Shown in pieces: positions 19,692 through 39,567 of a stretch of 64,000 nucleotides of DNA (position 1 is the stretch's first letter; every line of letters starts with the position of its first letter). Source of the stretch: a virus. Location of the stretch: the IMG/VR virus record IMGVR_UViG_3300025137_000025, positions 1-64,000 of that record, one strand, 5' to 3'. The notes under the pieces were generated by a model, which saw only the letters and a program-made list of their open reading frames with translations, searched no databases and had not been told where the DNA came from. Both the position numbers and the translations under genes were made by a program.

Positions 19692-21251
19692 TCACTTACG
19701 CAGTTTAAAGTACTTTTGGGTTTGAGTGGTTTCCTCACAGTCTCCTCCAGGACAGTTATCTTTTGCGTATTTATTTATCCACGATTGCATTGTTTTGGCG
19801 TACTCATCAGGAGTTTTGTTTTTCTTTTCCTTTGGAACATTAGGACCGTACTTACTAGGGAATACATCTGCTAAATCTTTTTTATCTCTGACTACATATC
19901 CTAAGTACTCTCTAGTTCCCTGTCTCCCAAGCATATTAATTATACCTGCAAGCTGTTCTGCACTATATCCTTTTTTTGCAATTTGATCAGGATAGTTTTT
20001 ATACATATGCTCAAGGTTGTTCATCATTGATTTCTCATTATTCAAACCTTCGTAGAGTCTTTTATCAAAGATGCTATCTTGTGCAGCTATGTTTGTGCTA
20101 AACTCTTTTCGCGTTCCTGGGTAACTATTTTTTACCTCGCTAAATAGCTGCCCATACAATCCAGTTGCTGTAGAACCTGGATTCATCATATTAACTCCAG
20201 CACTACTCTCCGTACCTGCTACTCCAGCTTTTAATAGCTCAGAATCTATCCCAAACGAGGGCGGAGTTCCTGCTTGCAGTTTACGAACACCCCCTGCTTG
20301 CCTTCTTTCGTAAGCACTAGCTTTGAAGGCTTTAGCCCCAATTACCCCTTTCTCAAGAGTGTGTGCCTTGTGTGATATGTTGTGCCCAGCTTTAGCAATG
20401 CGAGCCGCACCTACTGCATTCCCTGCAAACGGTATTGCACTAGCGGCACTAAGACCTGCTAATGTAAACTGCTCTTTAGCTTTTGCTGTGTCTCCTACTG
20501 CAGTATTGTATAGGCCTCGCACCCCACTAATTCCAGCATTTGCTAAATCTGCTACTTCCCCAATTACAGGTAGTTGTCCTGCAATTGCGAGGTCCATGCC
20601 CAGAGCGTCTAAAGGCTTGTCTTTATGAAACTGGTAAGCATTGCTACCTGCAGCGCTTAACCTGTTTGACACATTTGTCTGGGCTTTATTTACACGAGTC
20701 TGTTCTCCCCTATTATTAAACTGACGCATTTGTGCGTCTGTGGACGACGTTAAGCGATCATTGTTTTGAGGACGAGACGCAACGGCTGCTGCTAACTCTG
20801 GGTTAAGGTTGTTATACTGTGCGTATTGTTGCATTCCAGGAATAACTCCCCCACTTTGCATATTAGCAGGAGTCTCAATGACTGTACCACGTTGTGGTCC
20901 TGTTGGGAGATTTTGTACACCTGGGGGAACGTTATCGTATGACTTGACTAAGTGTCCCTGCTCATTAAACTTTTTGATGTCGATTGGGGCTTTCATGCCC
21001 ATCGTATTGAATGGAGTGTTAGGAGGGACATTAGGGAATGTCATACTTTGATTAACGTTCCCCACCTGGTGTGCGGGTCTCAATCCTTGCTGTTGCTGTT
21101 GAGGTGTTTGCGCAACTTGCATTTGTTGTTGCTCAAACTCCCCAAGTAAGTCTATTCCTTGGTCGTGTGCCTTGAATACATCAAGTATAGACCCAGGAAA
21201 CTGAGACTGTCGGTGTCTTGTCAATAAACTCCGGCGAGTAGCGTTATCCAT
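19692..21251 (-). CDS. Portal-linked virion protein with transglycosylase-like C-terminal domain
   Basis: A 519-residue protein whose ATG shares a base with the portal stop (TAATG at 21251). The N-terminal third is Gln/Pro/Asn-rich and probably disordered. Residues ~225-290 are hydrophobic (AIAGQLPVIGEVADLANAG, SAASAIPFAGNAVGAARI), as in membrane-inserting segments. The C-terminal ~190 residues contain GTESSAGVNMMNPGSTATGL, reminiscent of the Glu/Ser...Gly-Leu-Gln pattern of lytic transglycosylases. It may be an ejected protein that opens peptidoglycan. The enzyme call is tentative because the usual GLMQ is GLYGQ here. Confidence 0.55.
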   Translation of the reverse strand: MDNATRRSLLTRHRQSQFPGSILDVFKAHDQGIDLLGEFEQQQMQVAQTPQQQQQGLRPAHQVGNVNQSMTFPNVPPNTPFNTMGMKAPIDIKKFNEQGHLVKSYDNVPPGVQNLPTGPQRGTVIETPANMQSGGVIPGMQQYAQYNNLNPELAAAVASRPQNNDRLTSSTDAQMRQFNNRGEQTRVNKAQTNVSNRLSAAGSNAYQFHKDKPLDALGMDLAIAGQLPVIGEVADLANAGISGVRGLYNTAVGDTAKAKEQFTLAGLSAASAIPFAGNAVGAARIAKAGHNISHKAHTLEKGVIGAKAFKASAYERRQAGGVRKLQAGTPPSFGIDSELLKAGVAGTESSAGVNMMNPGSTATGLYGQLFSEVKNSYPGTRKEFSTNIAAQDSIFDKRLYEGLNNEKSMMNNLEHMYKNYPDQIAKKGYSAEQLAGIINMLGRQGTREYLGYVVRDKKDLADVFPSKYGPNVPKEKKNKTPDEYAKTMQSWINKYAKDNCPGGDCEETTQTQKYFKLRK

Positions 21252-27230: not shown

Positions 27231-27734
27231 TTATATAGTGTCAAAGTCTATATAAGAAATTTCTACTTTTTCCCCCTTTTCAAGCACCTCTGCTACTTCT
27301 GCGTACACTCTTCTGTATGCTGTAGTAGAACTTCCTACAAACCCGTCGGATTTTATGTTTTCTGTTTGTGTGTTACCCAAGAGTAGACACCCACTAGTAT
27401 CATCATCATCATTACCGCAATGGATAAGAATATACTCAAACCCAGGTATATCACGAACCCACAACATCCCTTTATGAATATCAGCAAACCTTTCAGAGTA
27501 TTTAGAATTAAAACCCCCAACAGTTCTAAGCGTAATTTCATATGTCCCAGCAGGGATACGCGTTTCGTGCATGACTTTCGTATCTCTGTATTCATCCTCT
27601 AATGTGTAGCATAAAAATTCTCTTTTTTTGTCTGTAACATTAAATAACAGACCAAGAGTACTGTCTTTCTGCGAGCTAAACCTTACAACCTCTAGCTGCA
27701 TAGTTTTACGGTTAATTGGGTACCTTAAATTCAT
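27231..27734 (-). CDS. DUF5675 family protein
   Basis: A 167-residue protein with the family pattern: STLGLLF, FLCYTLEDEYRD, RIPAGTYEITLR, a middle GMLWVRDIPGFEYILIHCGN and DDTSGCLLLG. The IHCGN...GC part recalls the active-site region of YkuD-like transpeptidases, so a cell-wall related job is possible but unproven. ATG at 27734 is chosen over GTG 9 bases earlier. It heads the late operon and starts 32 bases from a divergent gene. Confidence 0.7.
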   Translation of the reverse strand: MNLRYPINRKTMQLEVVRFSSQKDSTLGLLFNVTDKKREFLCYTLEDEYRDTKVMHETRIPAGTYEITLRTVGGFNSKYSERFADIHKGMLWVRDIPGFEYILIHCGNDDDDTSGCLLLGNTQTENIKSDGFVGSSTTAYRRVYAEVAEVLEKGEKVEISYIDFDTI

Positions 27735-27742
27735 AGTAGTCA

Positions 27743-27750
27743 CAAATATA
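27743..27750 (-). promoter_or_regulatory. Putative -7 box TATATTTG in a 32-base divergent gap
   Basis: The gap between the DUF5675 gene (minus) and the T9SS type B gene (plus, GTG at 27767) holds TATATTTG reading leftward, 8 bases before the DUF5675 ATG. The gap is AT-rich and must also contain signals for the plus-strand gene, so the two promoters probably overlap. Confidence 0.4.
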
Positions 27751-27766
27751 GTTATATATTAGCTGT

Positions 27767-29005
27767 GTGAAAAAATTATTTCTTCTCGTATTGCTCGCCC
27801 AAGTCATACTTGTGGGATACGCTAATATAGCTATAAAAACCATTGTATTCCCTGGGTGCACTGACCCCTTTGCACTTAATTACAATGAGGATGCTACTGA
27901 AGATGATGGCACCTGCGTCTATTCTATAGGCCCAGATCCAGTCATACTTAATATAACTGTTACGGATGAAAGCTGCCAAGAGTACGAGACAGGAGTCCTG
28001 TCTTCTTACGTATACGAGGCTACTATAGTAAACATAGGAAATGAAGCAGTTACAAACTTTTGCCTTAGCGACTTTTTAGGTACTACGTTTAATTGTTTTA
28101 ACGGGGTTTCTAATCTTGCTGTTTGGATTCAACCGGGGGATACTATAATTGTAACGGGCAACATTAATAGTATCGGCACATGGGCAGCAGGGCAAGGAAA
28201 CTACATGAGCGTAACGAGTGTTCCTGGTGAGATTATTACAGGTAATAATAACTTTGTTTTTTACATGCCTGAGGGAGTGGATTGCATAGAGCCTCCTGAT
28301 CCCGAGTATTGCGATACTTTACTGGTTTACGTGACTGAGATAGATACGCTTATTGAGTATGTAGAACTTCCTGCTGATACAGTGACTGTGCTGCAGTTAG
28401 ACACGTTGTACATCCCTTGGGAGTATTACTTCTACGATACCGTCTATGTAGATGTCTTTGATACTATTTACATTAACATTTTAGACACAGTTATTGTTAC
28501 AGAGATTGATATTGAGTACGTTTATGTAACAGACACATTAGAAGTCTTTACAACAGACACATTGTATATCACGCAAGTAGATACTCTAATGCAAGAAGTC
28601 GTTGTGTACGAATACATCTACAACACAGATACCATCTATGATGTAGTATATAATGAGATATTAGTAGACTGCAGTACTGGTCTCCCTTGTATGGGTGGGT
28701 TTGTTGGGGAAGACTGCCGATCCGTATTTGTCCCTAACGCGTTTTCTCCTAACAATGATGGTATTAATGACACCTTCTATGCAGTATCTCAATCTTACAC
28801 ATGTTGGAGAGACTGGAATTTAGTTGTTTATAACCGTTGGGGAAATATAATATGGAGTACTACTGACCCCGAAGTGCAGTGGGAAGGAGAAACTGAAGCC
28901 GGTACTCATTATGCCGCAGATGGGATGTACGTATGGACTTTGATTGCAAGAGGGTATTCCGGAGATGTTTTAGACCTCAGTGGGAACGTTACACTCTTTC
29001 GTTAA
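27767..29005 (+). CDS. Secreted repeat protein with T9SS type B (gliding-motility) C-terminal domain
   Basis: A 412-residue protein with a GTG start. Residues 1-19 (KKLFLLVLLAQVILVGYA) form a signal peptide. A single calcium-type repeat GCTDPFALNYNEDATEDDG follows at ~30-48, then a beta domain and a stalk of DTLYI/DTVYVD-like repeats (~200-300). The last ~90 residues start VFVPNAFSPNNDGINDTF and contain NRWGNIIW and ADGMYVWTL, matching the gliding-motility-associated C-terminal domain (CHU_C, TIGR04131) that marks type IX secretion type B cargo. The protein should be carried to the host cell surface. It is the only plus-strand gene in the late block and its stop overlaps that of the thioredoxin-like gene by 4 bases. 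Confidence 0.9.
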   Translation: MKKLFLLVLLAQVILVGYANIAIKTIVFPGCTDPFALNYNEDATEDDGTCVYSIGPDPVILNITVTDESCQEYETGVLSSYVYEATIVNIGNEAVTNFCLSDFLGTTFNCFNGVSNLAVWIQPGDTIIVTGNINSIGTWAAGQGNYMSVTSVPGEIITGNNNFVFYMPEGVDCIEPPDPEYCDTLLVYVTEIDTLIEYVELPADTVTVLQLDTLYIPWEYYFYDTVYVDVFDTIYINILDTVIVTEIDIEYVYVTDTLEVFTTDTLYITQVDTLMQEVVVYEYIYNTDTIYDVVYNEILVDCSTGLPCMGGFVGEDCRSVFVPNAFSPNNDGINDTFYAVSQSYTCWRDWNLVVYNRWGNIIWSTTDPEVQWEGETEAGTHYAADGMYVWTLIARGYSGDVLDLSGNVTLFR

Positions 29006-29373
29006 AAGTCGCTTAGTATAATTTCGTCGATTGCATCTTGCACATCTGTTTCTGTGGCTTCCATTGTCATCATAATGTTAGCCTGAAATCGTGTTATTTC
29101 TTCTCCCTCGTTAAATACTACGATAGTGGGAACAACTACAATTTTGTGTCTTTGCTGCATATCCGGAGAAGATGCAATATCTACTCTCCCAGTTTCACAA
29201 TCATTTAATTGTTCTATCCAAGGAACAGCGTTCTGCTGATTGAAGTTGGCGTTGAATTCTACTACGCACACTCCAGACGTGCAGATTTTAGCTTCTTCTA
29301 CAGGCGGCGTACTTACGTAAACAGCTGTTGAAAATAAAAGCAGGGATAATATAACAGAGATTAAGGTTTTCAT
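29002..29373 (-). CDS. Exported thioredoxin-fold protein lacking CxxC
   Basis: A 123-residue protein with a signal peptide (KTLISVILSLLLFSTAVYVS). The rest has the thioredoxin outline: VVEFNANFNQQNAVPWIEQL where WCGPC should be, RVDIASSP, and IVVVPTIVVFNEGEEI with the conserved cis-Pro. The redox CxxC is absent, but two Cys lie just before the fold (CTSGVC). It should be periplasmic and is unlikely to be a normal reductase. It could be a chaperone-like or host-interaction factor. It lies in the envelope module. Confidence 0.7.
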   Translation of the reverse strand: MKTLISVILSLLLFSTAVYVSTPPVEEAKICTSGVCVVEFNANFNQQNAVPWIEQLNDCETGRVDIASSPDMQQRHKIVVVPTIVVFNEGEEITRFQANIMMTMEATETDVQDAIDEIILSDF

Positions 29374-29380
29374 TTCTCAT

Positions 29381-29665
29381 TTATTTAAGTTGATCTATTT
29401 TCTCCTCAATCCGTTTGATGTCTTCTTTTATTTCTGTGACATCTTCTTGTGTAGTCATAATAGTTTGACGAACTAATTTGTCTTTCATGTCAAACTCCAT
29501 GCGTGTGATTTCAGGAGCTAGTGGCTCTGGGAGTTTTTTTGCTTCTTCTATATCTGCTTGCAGTACAAACCACATGCTTATGAGCGCCCCCAAACCCGTA
29601 ACCGCTAACCCAATTGTTTTAAGATCTAAAGTAATCTTTGTGCTCTCATTAATATGCTGTGCCAT
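29381..29665 (-). CDS. Single-pass membrane protein with coiled coil
   Basis: A 94-residue protein. One transmembrane helix near residues 17-36 (IGLAVTGLGALISMWFVLQA) is followed by an acidic coiled coil (QEDVTEIKEDIKRIEEKIDQ). The ATG at 29665 shares a base with the stop of the barrel gene (TAATG) and is preferred to a start 42 bases upstream inside that gene. The topology fits a small holin accessory, spanin-like or antiholin protein beside the holin module, but this is not certain. Confidence 0.6.
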   Translation of the reverse strand: MAQHINESTKITLDLKTIGLAVTGLGALISMWFVLQADIEEAKKLPEPLAPEITRMEFDMKDKLVRQTIMTTQEDVTEIKEDIKRIEEKIDQLK

Positions 29666-30708
29666 TATAGTAATATGTAGTTTAAACCGATAGAGAAGTC
29701 GTGCCACTCTCTGTTCCAGTATCTATTGTACCTGCCCTCTGCAAATACTCCTAAGCTTTTGGTTACTTTAGAACCAAAGACTATTCCAGCACCAGTGTCT
29801 ATCCACTGGCCCCCGTTTACAAAGTTATGGTACGAAAATTTGTTTCCGTTGTTTAAGTGATAGGGCATAATGTTGCCCCAAGAGTGTATCCAAAAATCTT
29901 TTGTGTAATGATAAAAATCAAACCCAATTACAGCGGAATGCATCCATATACTTTGAAGCTCCGCACGTCTGTCTGCTACGTAGGTATCTAGCACTTCTGG
30001 TATTACTACTTGTTCCCAGATTGCAGGATCGTTTGCTACGAGGCCCCCGTTTTGATCAAAAAATTCTCCTGTATTAACATCTATACTGTACCCTTCTTGT
30101 ATTGCGAGGGCGGTATAATGTAGTTGGTTATTTGGGAGAACCCACTGCTGCAAAGGGTCGTACCCGTAAGGTTCTGATATTCTTTGTACGATGCCGAGGT
30201 TTAAGGAAAACTTCTTCCCAATCTTAAGTCGTGCTCGTTGTGACGACTCAAAGTATTTTACGTCAGCAAACCCATCTTGTAGATACTCTGCTTTTACTAA
30301 CCACCAATTGTCTACGTATCTAACAAAGTAGTCTTGGTCTAAAAAGTTCCGCCCCTGCTGCCTCCTCCAGTCCGCTTCCGCCAGGAACTCGAACCCGTCA
30401 TATTTTCCAACGGTAGCAGCGTCACCATAAGTTTTTTCTGTTCCGTTGTAAAATACGTTGGCTCTGTTTTCATACCCAAACCTAGCAATCTTTCTAACTC
30501 CCAGAGTAAATGAATAGTCAAACGGAGTTTTAATTACACTTGTTTGTAGCGCTCCTGTAGCAACAGAGTATACTTCTTGATCGGAAACGGAGTTTCCGCC
30601 GTTTACTGCAGCGTAGAAAGTAGCACGTCTAAGAACCTTCTTGTAGAAGTCACTTTGTCCCCAGCTAATTGTGGGGGCCAATAATAATAGTGCTATAATG
30701 TATCTCAT
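29665..30708 (-). CDS. Outer-membrane beta-barrel protein
   Basis: A 347-residue protein with a signal peptide (RYIIALLLLAPTISWGQS). Alternating strands are rich in Tyr, Phe and Trp, for example GYENRANVFYNGTE, DGFEFLAEADWRRQQ, AVIGFDFYHYTKDFWIHSWG and FAEGRYNRYWNREWHDFSIG; it ends in LNYILL, a strand-like C-terminus. It should insert in the host outer membrane. It is not an obvious PorP/SprF. Receptor modification, superinfection exclusion or help with surface display are possible roles. It overlaps the T9SS type A gene by 4 bases, indicating coexpression. Confidence 0.75.
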   Translation of the reverse strand: MRYIIALLLLAPTISWGQSDFYKKVLRRATFYAAVNGGNSVSDQEVYSVATGALQTSVIKTPFDYSFTLGVRKIARFGYENRANVFYNGTEKTYGDAATVGKYDGFEFLAEADWRRQQGRNFLDQDYFVRYVDNWWLVKAEYLQDGFADVKYFESSQRARLKIGKKFSLNLGIVQRISEPYGYDPLQQWVLPNNQLHYTALAIQEGYSIDVNTGEFFDQNGGLVANDPAIWEQVVIPEVLDTYVADRRAELQSIWMHSAVIGFDFYHYTKDFWIHSWGNIMPYHLNNGNKFSYHNFVNGGQWIDTGAGIVFGSKVTKSLGVFAEGRYNRYWNREWHDFSIGLNYILL

Positions 30709-32828
30709 TCTCGTACAATTGTTTGTTTAACAACTCGACCGTTGTATTCCACTACTACGATATACACTCCTGCGGTAGGGAGTTCTATTTGTGAATTAAT
30801 TGTTGTTATTAGTTCTTGCCCTATAGAGTTATAAATAGTGCTTACACTACTCGGGGGAGCTTGAATATTTATGGTTCTATTTGTTGGGTTTGGGTATATG
30901 CTTATTCTTTCAAAGAGCTCGGGGATGTTTGTTACCCCGTCTCCACAGTACTCATACATTTCTACACACACGTTGTCCCAATTAGTTTCACAGCAGTAGG
31001 GGTCAATACTAATAACCCATGAGTAGCACTGGTCGTTTCCCCAGTACGGATCGCCTGGCTCTCCTATACATCCTGCATCATATAAACACTGCTCATTATC
31101 TGCAGTATTAGCATCTGCATTAAAGTTGTAAGCGTCTGTGTCCATGCACCCCTCTAGCACATCAATACAACCGCCCCCATCAGCGTTTGCTTCTTCGTCG
31201 TAGTTAATTGCATCTGGATTAGTACATCCGTAAATGAAGGCTACGCAACTTCCGTTGTCTGTGTTTGCTTCCGCGTTGTAGTTAAACTGTGTGGGATCGG
31301 TACAACCAAAGACAATCTGTTCGCAGTCCCCACTATCAGTAGCAATAGGGTTGTAATTAAATGCTGTAGCATCCATGCATCCAACTATTTCTAACTCATC
31401 GCAAACTCCATCGTTGTCCAAATCTGTAACACACTGATTATCACAGGTATAGAACTCTATGGGAAGTGTGCAGTCTGATTCTACATTTGCATCAGGATTG
31501 TAGTCACATGCAATTGGGTTTGTGCACCCAACTACAGCGTCAATGCAGAAGTCTTGACAATAAGGAACACCTTCGTATTTAAATGGGAACTTATTTATTG
31601 GGTCAGTCCAAGGGTTACTTCCAGCTTCCATAAATATTCCAGTAGGACTGGTGAAGAAGAATCCGCATTGGGCGGCGGTAGTTTCAGCGTTACCTCCTGT
31701 AAAGAACATTACTTCTATAGGTTCTCCTGAGTACAGTGGGATAAGGAACTGCTCTTCTGTCCCATCATTAGGACCCATTTGGAATGGGCCAAATATCTCA
31801 TCCCCTTGCACAACACCTAACCAGCTCCCAAACCATCCGTCACCTGCTCCGTCTGTTATTGTAAGGAGTGTCATACATAATGACTGTGTTTCTAGTGTGT
31901 TAGCGTCGGGGTTAAAATTAACTGCGGTAGAGTCTATGCAGCCCAGGATCACCTCGGTTAGGCAAGACTCGTCATCTATATCTGCAAGTGGGTTGTACTC
32001 AGTAAAGTTAGGGTCTGTGCATCCCTCTAGTACATCAGTTGTGCATGCATCTACAGCAATAGGCTCGCTGGAGATAGTGGAGTATTGCAAAGTATCTCCT
32101 ATATAGTATAGCGTATCTCCACATAAAGTAGTTATTGAGATATTACCATCAACCCCACCATAGCAGCTCCCGCACATCCCATCACCAAAAGTGTCTAACA
32201 CTTCTAAGACAAGAGTGTCCCCAACAGCAACGCACACATCATGTATTACTGGGATTCCTACAGAAGTATACCCACTGCCCGATAGTATCTCTACTTCATT
32301 AGACTGCAGTCCCCAACTAATCTCGCCTGCGTATGTGTCTGGGGTTACTGTTACAATAATGGTGGTCTCTCCATTGTCACAAGGTTGGGGCGGATAAACA
32401 CAAGGTTGAGAAGCATTAGCCCAAGGATTGTAGTCTACTGCTATTGGGTCAGTACATCCAAAGATGGGTGGGGGACAAGGAAGTACCTCAAATGGGAGTA
32501 TTAGTTCTGGGCTATTGAAGTCGTATACTGCTGTATCTAATTGGCAGGAATTACTAAGGGCAAACCACCCTTCCCCAAACCCACAGCAGATCCCGTCCCC
32601 AAAGCTGTCGTATATGATAAACTCGTAGTTACCTGGGGAGAGAAAGACAAGCTGCTCGTTGTATGAGTTACTTGCGTAAGTGCTTGACTCTTCTATAACT
32701 TCCTCGTCCTGTACGATTACCCAGCTAGTCTCGAGTGCGTACTGGTCTGTTTGAAGTTCCACAATTACCCAGCTCTGTCCCAGCACTATGCTTGGGAGGA
32801 GCAATAACAGTGCTAGCAGCGATCTCAT
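30705..32828 (-). CDS. Large secreted repeat protein with T9SS type A sorting domain
   Basis: A 707-residue protein. Signal peptide RSLLALLLLLPSIVLGQ at 1-18. Two beta domains carry DSFGDGICCGFGEGW and DTFGDGMCGSCYGG. Eight GCTDPxAxNYNPxA-type repeats are spread through the protein (GCTDPIAVDYNPWAN, GCTNPIACDYNPDAN, GCMDATAFNYNPIAT and others). A Cys-rich DPYCCETNWDNVC unit precedes a C-terminal ~75 residues starting ISIYPNPTNRTINI and ending in VVEYNGRVVKQTI, the T9SS type A sorting domain (TIGR04183). It should be exported and anchored or released on the host surface. ATG overlaps the holin stop (ATGA). A phage carrying this cargo is unusual. Confidence 0.9.
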   Translation of the reverse strand: MRSLLALLLLLPSIVLGQSWVIVELQTDQYALETSWVIVQDEEVIEESSTYASNSYNEQLVFLSPGNYEFIIYDSFGDGICCGFGEGWFALSNSCQLDTAVYDFNSPELILPFEVLPCPPPIFGCTDPIAVDYNPWANASQPCVYPPQPCDNGETTIIVTVTPDTYAGEISWGLQSNEVEILSGSGYTSVGIPVIHDVCVAVGDTLVLEVLDTFGDGMCGSCYGGVDGNISITTLCGDTLYYIGDTLQYSTISSEPIAVDACTTDVLEGCTDPNFTEYNPLADIDDESCLTEVILGCIDSTAVNFNPDANTLETQSLCMTLLTITDGAGDGWFGSWLGVVQGDEIFGPFQMGPNDGTEEQFLIPLYSGEPIEVMFFTGGNAETTAAQCGFFFTSPTGIFMEAGSNPWTDPINKFPFKYEGVPYCQDFCIDAVVGCTNPIACDYNPDANVESDCTLPIEFYTCDNQCVTDLDNDGVCDELEIVGCMDATAFNYNPIATDSGDCEQIVFGCTDPTQFNYNAEANTDNGSCVAFIYGCTNPDAINYDEEANADGGGCIDVLEGCMDTDAYNFNADANTADNEQCLYDAGCIGEPGDPYWGNDQCYSWVISIDPYCCETNWDNVCVEMYEYCGDGVTNIPELFERISIYPNPTNRTINIQAPPSSVSTIYNSIGQELITTINSQIELPTAGVYIVVVEYNGRVVKQTIVRE

Positions 32829-33256
32829 TTTTTTGTTTTTTCAATCGTCCTTCCTGCAAAGTATGCACCGAACGCGGTTAGCATTAGTATTTGCAATAAG
32901 TCGATGTAACTGTCCTTGACGTTGAATGGTAAGCTGTCCATGCTGTCGAACACCATAGTTAGGCAGAACATTACCATTAATGTGATGAGGGTAACTGGTC
33001 GTATTAGTTTGGCGAGTTTAATATCGCTCCCCATATCAGCCTTCCACCGTTCCGTTACGTTCTCTTGGAATCGCACCTCTGCGTCTATCTTTGCCTGCGC
33101 CTCGGCAGGGTCGATATCAGGCTCTTTATCTAGGAGGTTTTTTACAAGTCCCAGTGCTCCTTGGTCGGGTAATAGGTCACCCACGGTACCAAGAATGCTA
33201 GGAGCCTTTTCCTTTAACCAAGCACCTAACTTGGTGTCCTTAATCTTCTTGCTCAT
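32825..33256 (-). CDS. Holin, 3-TM (GTA_holin_3TM-like)
   Basis: A 143-residue protein. A soluble N-terminal half precedes AKIDAEVRFQENVTERWKAD and SDIKLAKLIRPVTLITLMVM, the sequence around the first helix of the 3-TM holin family (GTA_holin_3TM). Further hydrophobic stretches MFCLTMVF and DLLQILMLTAFGAYFAGRTIE follow. It would pierce the inner membrane to time lysis. ATG at 33256 is chosen over one 42 bases upstream because it begins the SKKIKDTK segment. It is the first gene of the envelope module. Confidence 0.8.
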   Translation of the reverse strand: MSKKIKDTKLGAWLKEKAPSILGTVGDLLPDQGALGLVKNLLDKEPDIDPAEAQAKIDAEVRFQENVTERWKADMGSDIKLAKLIRPVTLITLMVMFCLTMVFDSMDSLPFNVKDSYIDLLQILMLTAFGAYFAGRTIEKTKK

Positions 33257-33298
33257 ACGACTAGTTAGTTTGTCGTAAAAGTAATCAATTAAAACCAA

Positions 33299-39119: not shown

Positions 39120-39193
39120 GCGCTTATAGCTCAGTCGGTTAGAGCATCCGACTCATAATCGGCAGGTCCTAGGTTCAAGTCCTAGTAGGCGCA
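39120..39193 (+). tRNA. tRNA-Met (CAT anticodon)
   Basis: A 74-base cloverleaf. Acceptor GCGCTTA pairs with TAGGCGC and the discriminator is A. TAGCTCAGTCGGTTAGAGC is the D arm. The anticodon loop CTCATAA gives CAT; the T arm is TAGGTTCAAGTCCTA. A paired first base pair argues against an initiator tRNA. An isoleucine-2 tRNA with modified C34 cannot be excluded by sequence alone. Confidence 0.9.
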
Positions 39194-39255
39194 CTTATCT
39201 CGTCATTTATGACTGTCAAAGCGGCAACAGGTCACCGACACCTGTGGGGTATTAA

Positions 39256-39329
39256 GCTCTCTTAGCTCAGCTGGTTAGAGCATCTCACTTTTAATGAGAG
39301 GGTCCTGGGTTCGAGTCCCAGAGGGGGTA
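39256..39329 (+). tRNA. tRNA-Lys (TTT anticodon)
   Basis: A 74-base cloverleaf with D arm TAGCTCAGCTGGTTAGAGC, anticodon loop CTTTTAA (TTT, Lys) and T arm CTGGGTTCGAGTCCCAG. The acceptor pairs GCTCTCT with AGGGGGT, including several G-U pairs. The next bases are A then C. Confidence 0.9.
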
Positions 39330-39339
39330 CGACTATTAT

Positions 39340-39369
39340 CTAACATCAATCACCTATACAAGATGTTAG
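39340..39369 (+). other. Hairpin after tRNA-Lys
   Basis: CTAACATC and GATGTTAG form an 8-bp stem with a 14-base loop, 10 bases after the tRNA. It is followed by AGTTTATG. It may aid tRNA processing or stop transcription weakly. Confidence 0.4.
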
Positions 39370-39422
39370 AGTTTATGTAAGATAGGTTGCCCGACACCTT
39401 GTGGGTACAACGAATCAAGGTA

Positions 39423-39458
39423 GGGGAGATAAGTAGGTGCAAGATGCTTACTCTCCCC
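39423..39458 (+). other. Hairpin before tRNA-Arg
   Basis: GGGGAGA pairs with TCTCCCC and is extended by TAAGT with GCTTA across a bulged C. It lies 7 bases before tRNA-Arg. A third small hairpin, ACAGGT...ACCTGT at 39227-39245, precedes tRNA-Lys, so each tRNA spacer holds one. Confidence 0.4.
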
Positions 39459-39465
39459 GATTTCT

Positions 39466-39539
<74 letters not shown>

Positions 39540-39567
39540 CAATCAAAATTTAAACACAAACAATTTA

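Follow-up and report, generated by a model that had tools for sequence, protein, structure and literature searches.

Does a phage supply its own cargo to the type IX secretion system (T9SS), the main surface route in many Bacteroidota, which are a dominant group in sea and soil? The question is raised by a 64,000-nt stretch of DNA (the window) that belongs to a 78,586-base Crassvirales phage record (IMGVR_UViG_3300025137_000025). A first-pass annotation of the window had proposed that two genes, here called T9A and T9B (Table 1), encode secreted proteins with T9SS C-terminal domains of type A and type B, respectively. Both open reading frames are present with these boundaries, and both products resemble T9SS cargo of the two major classes. 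That they are phage genes, as annotated, is borne out by the crAss-type capsid (Crass_capsid, PF23898), terminase (phrog_6681), portal (phrog_6547) and ring proteins in the record, which also has PF24228 and PF25702. T9A is the first gene of a tight four-gene cassette that further encodes a β-barrel, a small membrane protein (gp108) and a thioredoxin-fold protein, while T9B is a separate gene.

T9SS sorting domains in T9A and T9B

Searches with hidden Markov models (TIGR04183 for type A, TIGR04131/PF13585 for type B) gave matches above the cut-offs for both proteins. T9B matched PF13585 (CHU_C) with 56.2 bits (cut-off 27, E 3.8e-15) and TIGR04131 with 35.3 bits, barely over the cut-off of 35. 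The type A signal is weaker: T9A matched TIGR04183 with 29.2 bits (cut-off 23, E 6.6e-7), and the parallel Pfam model PF18962 stayed under its cut-off of 27 with 21.4 bits. The TIGR04183 match spans residues 644–705 of 707, that is the extreme C-terminus, as expected of a type A sorting domain. A genome-wide search of the whole record returned exactly one type A and one type B match. Both N-termini (MRSLLALLLLLPSIVLGQ in T9A) look convincingly like signal peptides, as annotated, when judged by eye from a basic start, a hydrophobic core and a small residue before Q/N.

T9A is acidic and Cys-rich (isoelectric point ≈4, 39 Cys). GCTDP-type repeats had been claimed for both proteins, which holds for T9A, with eight such motifs (none in 500 shuffles), but not for T9B, where just one motif is found. 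The most conserved part of T9A among 48 phages is a 47-residue Cys domain, with a mean top-residue frequency of 0.75 (0.50–0.66 elsewhere) and an occupancy of 1.0. TIGR04183 is present in 47 of the 48 T9A relatives of the cassette, so widely differing phages have retained the sorting signal. Type A matches over the cut-off occur in 31 of 43 larger phage records and type B matches in 17, always one apiece, and nine records have both. The sole match to T9A in INPHARED is AG-345-P14, over 59 residues with GCTDP motifs.

The two genes had been taken as one system, which is not what we find. T9A lies within the barrel cassette, whereas T9B forms its own unit on the opposite strand, and it is also opposite to the terminase in all 28 loci having both genes. 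A pattern search found T9B in 346 viral loci, and it is also found in the T4-like phages G007, G009 and G010. The stalk of T9B has an 8-residue repeat (lag-8 identity 0.21 compared with 0.11 in shuffles, p 0.002). Compared with L005, the head of T9B is 90% identical and the anchor end 67%, while the corresponding values for L008 are 33 and 84%. The heads are thus exchanged independently of the anchor end, and the β stalk and sorting domain are retained. The structure model of T9B (predicted local distance difference test, pLDDT, 54; predicted template modelling score, pTM, 0.33) is limited to the C-terminal sheet and a CARDB-like head (3idu), and Foldseek therefore yields no identity for the protein.

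Type B cargo genes of Bacteroidota commonly have the gene of their cognate PorP/SprF barrel directly downstream; this barrel serves as shuttle and anchor and is needed for both secretion and surface anchorage (PMC12618676; PMC9143113). This arrangement is common but not universal for type B cargo, and no such gene lies directly downstream of T9B. PF11751 (PorP/SprF) was absent from 14 phage records including that of the window phage, and present in two Bacteroidota MAGs (metagenome-assembled genomes). Since no phage-encoded shuttle was found, T9B would have to borrow one of the PorP/SprF type from the host, and by analogy it would be an "orphan" type B cargo like the three orphan substrates known in Flavobacterium johnsoniae (PMC12618676).

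Two further observations concern T9B. A small Cys-rich secreted protein of 120–140 aa, a possible T9B partner, adjoins T9B in T4-like and crAss-like phages (L011:11059–11481, L012:11052–11471, L068:2523–2885 and L089:1647–2048) and is not found in the window. Proteins encoded by the huge uncultured phages LR756502.1 and LR745206.1 (634–642 kb) also end in a T9B-like CHU_C domain.

A four-gene cassette in several phage groups

T9A, the barrel, gp108 and the thioredoxin-fold gene follow each other in that order. The gene directly upstream of the barrel is a T9A relative in 80 of 83 loci, with the remaining three near contig ends. When gp108 was used as the seed of an independent scan, 58 loci had sufficient upstream DNA; of these, 57 have the thioredoxin-fold gene, 55 the barrel and 52 T9A. 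As the barrel and gp108 sets each consist of the best 80 loci and overlap in some contigs, these fractions describe the near family and not all phages; the contigs are linear IMG/VR records and may be incomplete. With median gaps of −4 (T9A to barrel), 1 (barrel to gp108) and 5 bases (gp108 to thioredoxin fold) the cassette is a tight operon and probably translationally coupled. In the closest pairs, the whole-gene ratio of nonsynonymous to synonymous substitutions (dN/dS) is ≈0.04–0.19, which indicates purifying selection on each cassette gene; deeper pairs are saturated.

The annotation had also placed a holin and an outer-membrane barrel next to the cargo genes, and both neighbours were recovered. 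The barrel is modelled with ≈12 strands at medium confidence (pLDDT 63, pTM 0.57), and Foldseek returned autotransporter, NanC and OmpG barrels, i.e., several barrel classes, with E-values down to 8e-8. Together with the putative signal peptide and a C-terminal hydrophobic strand, the modelled fold points to an outer-membrane β-barrel. Relatives occupy at least 538 viral loci in IMG/VR (scan with the barrel alignment), and 84,980 bacterial and archaeal genomes gave four loci or contigs, all from MAGs. INPHARED (50,697 phage records) contains no match, and no known family was found in PHROGs, Pfam or PDB sequences, the sub-threshold SH3_5 matches in Pfam being noise. Homology to PorP/SprF was rejected (hhalign against PF11751, E 0.13 over nine columns; no Pfam match), as was homology to PorV (hhalign against NF033709, E 0.23 over 25 columns); a control profile-profile comparison, A6 against A7, gave E 0.0016. 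A divergent branch of the barrel family (361–365 aa) occurs with gp108 and has no T9A upstream (L046:340–1437, L305:3900–4997 and L328:3913–4998).

The hydropathy of gp108 peaks at 1.93 at residue 17, and its PHROG matches are weak (phrog_462/1009). Alignment and hydropathy give it an i-spanin-like topology; no spanin family match was obtained, and no o-spanin lipoprotein gene was recognised at the cassette. None of the 88 members of the thioredoxin-fold family has the CXXC redox motif of thioredoxins, and 87 have a VPT-type motif. The protein of the window likewise shows the fold signature only.

The cassette is found in different surroundings. It lies between the holin and DUF5675 genes in the window's own group, between the holin and an amidase in relatives, and between the portal and capsid genes in another crAss-like group. 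In T4-like carriers (gp23, PF07068, in G053 and G054) it directly precedes a PG_binding/Amidase_2 endolysin. The slot between holin and DUF5675 holds T9B alone in L032 and L033, a secreted M43 metallopeptidase (PF05572) and no T9SS cargo in L043, L044 and L047, and nothing in L035. Genes for secreted proteins thus have a hot spot in this slot. The cassette itself is an accessory unit and moves from one phage group to another. The M43 enzymes are of the pappalysin type with a dockerin-like tail (L043:5234–6394, L044:1395–2561 and L047:2431–3621).

Two Bacteroidota MAGs with a cassette contig carry SprA, PorV and PorP/SprF, although binning of viral contigs is unreliable. A few names, for example NAT55 and ERR599-type MAG titles, hint at a marine origin. 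The Flavobacteriales MAG G052, which contains L101, has five gp23 capsid matches, and viral contigs have thus been binned into it.

A possible viral counterpart of cargo-barrel pairs and its alternatives

We tentatively favour a reading that we regard as possible, if short of probable: the phage encodes cargo for the host T9SS plus an outer-membrane partner of its own that keeps the type A cargo attached to the infected cell's surface. T9A would be made late and cross the inner membrane via Sec, and its type A domain would be recognised by the host T9SS, with PorV as shuttle and SprA as pore, and moved outside; we infer this PorV/SprA-dependence from the sorting domain. The barrel encoded directly downstream would then hold T9A on the infected cell, most likely by contact with the conserved Cys domain or the sorting domain. 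With gp108 in the inner membrane and the redox-dead thioredoxin fold in the periplasm, the set might span the envelope. T9B would be a second, independently regulated cargo using the type B route and the borrowed shuttle.

The host T9SS as exporter and the phage barrel as anchor are favoured because the layout is PorP/SprF-like and because the two MAGs mentioned above have SprA, PorV and PorP/SprF. As in the type B pairs of Bacteroidota, a secreted cargo gene is directly followed by an outer-membrane barrel gene. Unlike those pairs, the cassette is phage-encoded, its cargo is of type A and its barrel unrelated, and it includes gp108 and a thioredoxin-fold gene. Evolutionary distances of the barrel correlate with those of the T9A C-terminus (r 0.86), of gp108 (0.60) and of the thioredoxin fold (0.70), and the first of these values fits a physical partnership.

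Several points weigh against this reading. The correlation is inflated by common descent, and neither PorV nor PorP/SprF shows profile similarity to the barrel, which is itself modelled with medium confidence. Since type A cargo of bacteria relies on PorV, its export does not call for a dedicated barrel. The cassette is also not one obligate machine, since barrels occur without T9A (L046, L305 and L328) and the gp108-thioredoxin pair without the barrel (L350, L353 and L355). Moreover, the INPHARED search found the barrel lacking in cultured crAss-like phages of Flavobacterium and Cellulophaga, whose hosts are generally T9SS-positive.

The purpose would be remodelling of the infected-cell surface, and the blocking of competing phages is our first choice because the outer parts are variable and swapped while the membrane parts are conserved. 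It has to be weighed against help in lysis, the strongest rival even if an unlikely one, in which gp108, the thioredoxin fold and the barrel would together breach the outer membrane in the manner of spanins, with T9A as an add-on to loosen or coat the surface for virion exit. What makes it the strongest is that gp108 and the thioredoxin fold adjoin an M15 endolysin and a holin in L353 and L355 with neither barrel nor cargo. The cassette itself can adjoin lysis genes, be it holin and DUF5675, holin and amidase, or the endolysin of the T4-like carriers. In addition, gp108 shares with two-component spanins an N-terminal membrane helix, a periplasmic coiled-coil-like tail and proximity to holin and endolysin. 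Yet the lipoprotein partner of such spanins was not recognised, nor a spanin family match, and a barrel and T9SS cargo are there instead. One crAss-like group has its cassette between portal and capsid, away from the lysis genes, and in L035 the holin directly adjoins DUF5675, so the cassette is dispensable for lysis. We therefore reject lysis in the strict sense as the sole explanation, given this placement and the empty slot.

Surface display could also serve adhesion, with the cargos released or displayed so that infected cells or lysate stick to other cells or to particles, which would help progeny to reach new hosts. The acidic repeats, the adhesin-like build with a long β stalk and exchangeable heads, and the secreted M43 peptidase in the same slot of some relatives agree with this, and adhesins, SprB for instance, are among the type B cargos of F. 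johnsoniae (PMC12618676; PMC9143113). However, no known adhesin domain or binding site was matched and the data do not separate adhesion from receptor masking, and we judge adhesion to be a rather improbable explanation. It is very improbable that T9A or T9B are virion proteins, such as fibres or decoration, with a sorting-domain likeness that is borrowed structure. Their late-gene position, next to the capsid genes in one group, would suit such a role, but signal-peptide-like starts, sorting domains at the extreme C-terminus, a co-transcribed outer-membrane barrel and the occurrence of the same cassette in phages with unrelated virions argue against it. Least credible of all are functionless passenger genes from a host, or an artefact of binning or assembly. 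Although the domains do resemble secreted proteins of Bacteroidota, this is already contradicted by the comparative data, namely the hundreds of viral contigs, the tight operon, the purifying selection and the virtual absence from bacterial genomes.

The favoured reading of T9SS cargo with a phage-encoded partner can be widened, with more doubt, to a transferable cassette in hundreds of Bacteroidota phages, by which the virus might supply T9SS cargo and its own outer-membrane shuttle or anchor and so reprogramme the host T9SS to coat the infected cell. If true, this would be the viral equivalent of the PorP/SprF route, using a barrel family virtually unseen in bacteria.

The first-pass remark that no described phage system of this kind was known is not supported in that form, as phage type A cargo has been reported twice. 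Cryophage encodes, according to a computational report, T9SS type A cargo, for which the authors propose hijacking of the host T9SS and possibly superinfection exclusion (PMC7468147). Both it and the window phage have genes with type A sorting domains, but Cryophage has three highly variable enzyme-like cargos (endoglucanase, GH39 and PA14) and no barrel cassette is described, whereas the window phage combines one type A cargo, part of a conserved four-gene cassette, with a type B cargo. Gut phage cluster 2 of a crAssphage-centred study likewise has T9SS sorting-domain proteins close to BACON genes; in contrast to the present case, that study describes no function, barrel partner or type B cargo (PMC6949934). 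A search of the open-licence literature turned up neither the barrel cassette nor phage type B cargo, and no functional test either.

To our knowledge, surface exclusion and envelope breakdown are largely unstudied in Bacteroidota phages. A conserved viral cassette that uses the T9SS would show how lytic phages remodel the Bacteroidota cell surface, and would account for some of the late genes that are listed as "unknown" in crAss-like and T4-like phages from the environment. It would offer defined tags and a new barrel family that can be tested in F. johnsoniae, and makes the question of surface exclusion or envelope breakdown directly testable.

Neighbouring genes and other features of the window phage

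The late-operon stretch around the cassette starts with the holin (Table 1). An amidase endolysin occupies the position of DUF5675 in the close relatives L060, L083 and L091, and this replacement suggests a role as lysis enzyme for DUF5675, a family of unknown function.

Table 1. Cargo genes, cassette and adjoining genes in the window.
Feature	Position	Strand	Basis and remarks
Holin	32825..33298	−	phrog_3427, E 7e-22; first gene of this late-operon stretch; stop overlaps T9A start
T9A, predicted secreted Cys-rich acidic protein, 707 aa, type A T9SS sorting domain	30705..32828	−	ATG start; TIGR04183
T9A region with eight GCTDP-like motifs, residues 118–583	31080..32477	−	Motif scan; first motif at 124, last at 560
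T9A Cys domain, residues 584–630	30939..31079	−	Adjoins sorting domain on N-terminal side; candidate docking domain
T9A type A T9SS C-terminal sorting domain	30714..30899	−	TIGR04183
Predicted phage outer-membrane β-barrel, 347 aa, putative signal peptide	29665..30708	−	Structure model and Foldseek; start codon overlaps T9A stop
gp108, 94 aa, one N-terminal membrane helix, C-terminal coiled-coil-like tail	29381..29665	−	Alignment A9, hydropathy
Predicted secreted thioredoxin-fold protein without CXXC	29002..29373	−	PF00085, E 0.0015
T9B, predicted secreted, 412 aa, type B T9SS sorting domain	27767..29005	+	GTG start; PF13585; antisense to late operon
T9B single GCTDP-type motif, residues 29–52	27851..27922	+	Sequence
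T9B β-rich stalk, 8-residue DT-x-x repeat	28307..28666	+	Lag-8 identity
T9B type B (CHU_C) T9SS sorting domain	28727..28945	+	PF13585, 59 bits in genome search
DUF5675 protein	27231..27743	−	PF18925, E 2e-26; probable peptidoglycan-active lysis protein

The last 18.6 kb of the record were also read, as L098. The nearest relatives of the window terminase among the phage records searched are gut crAss-like phages (≈42%). No integrase was among the Pfam families matched in 37 proteins of the window phage, and scans for sigma-70 promoters and terminators gave results close to the shuffled expectation. An open reading frame between the scaffold-like and portal genes (19692–21251) varies from ≈217 to 1403 aa among relatives, with constant lengths of its neighbours. 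Finally, the early region contains three tRNA genes (Met, Lys and Arg) at 39120–39540.

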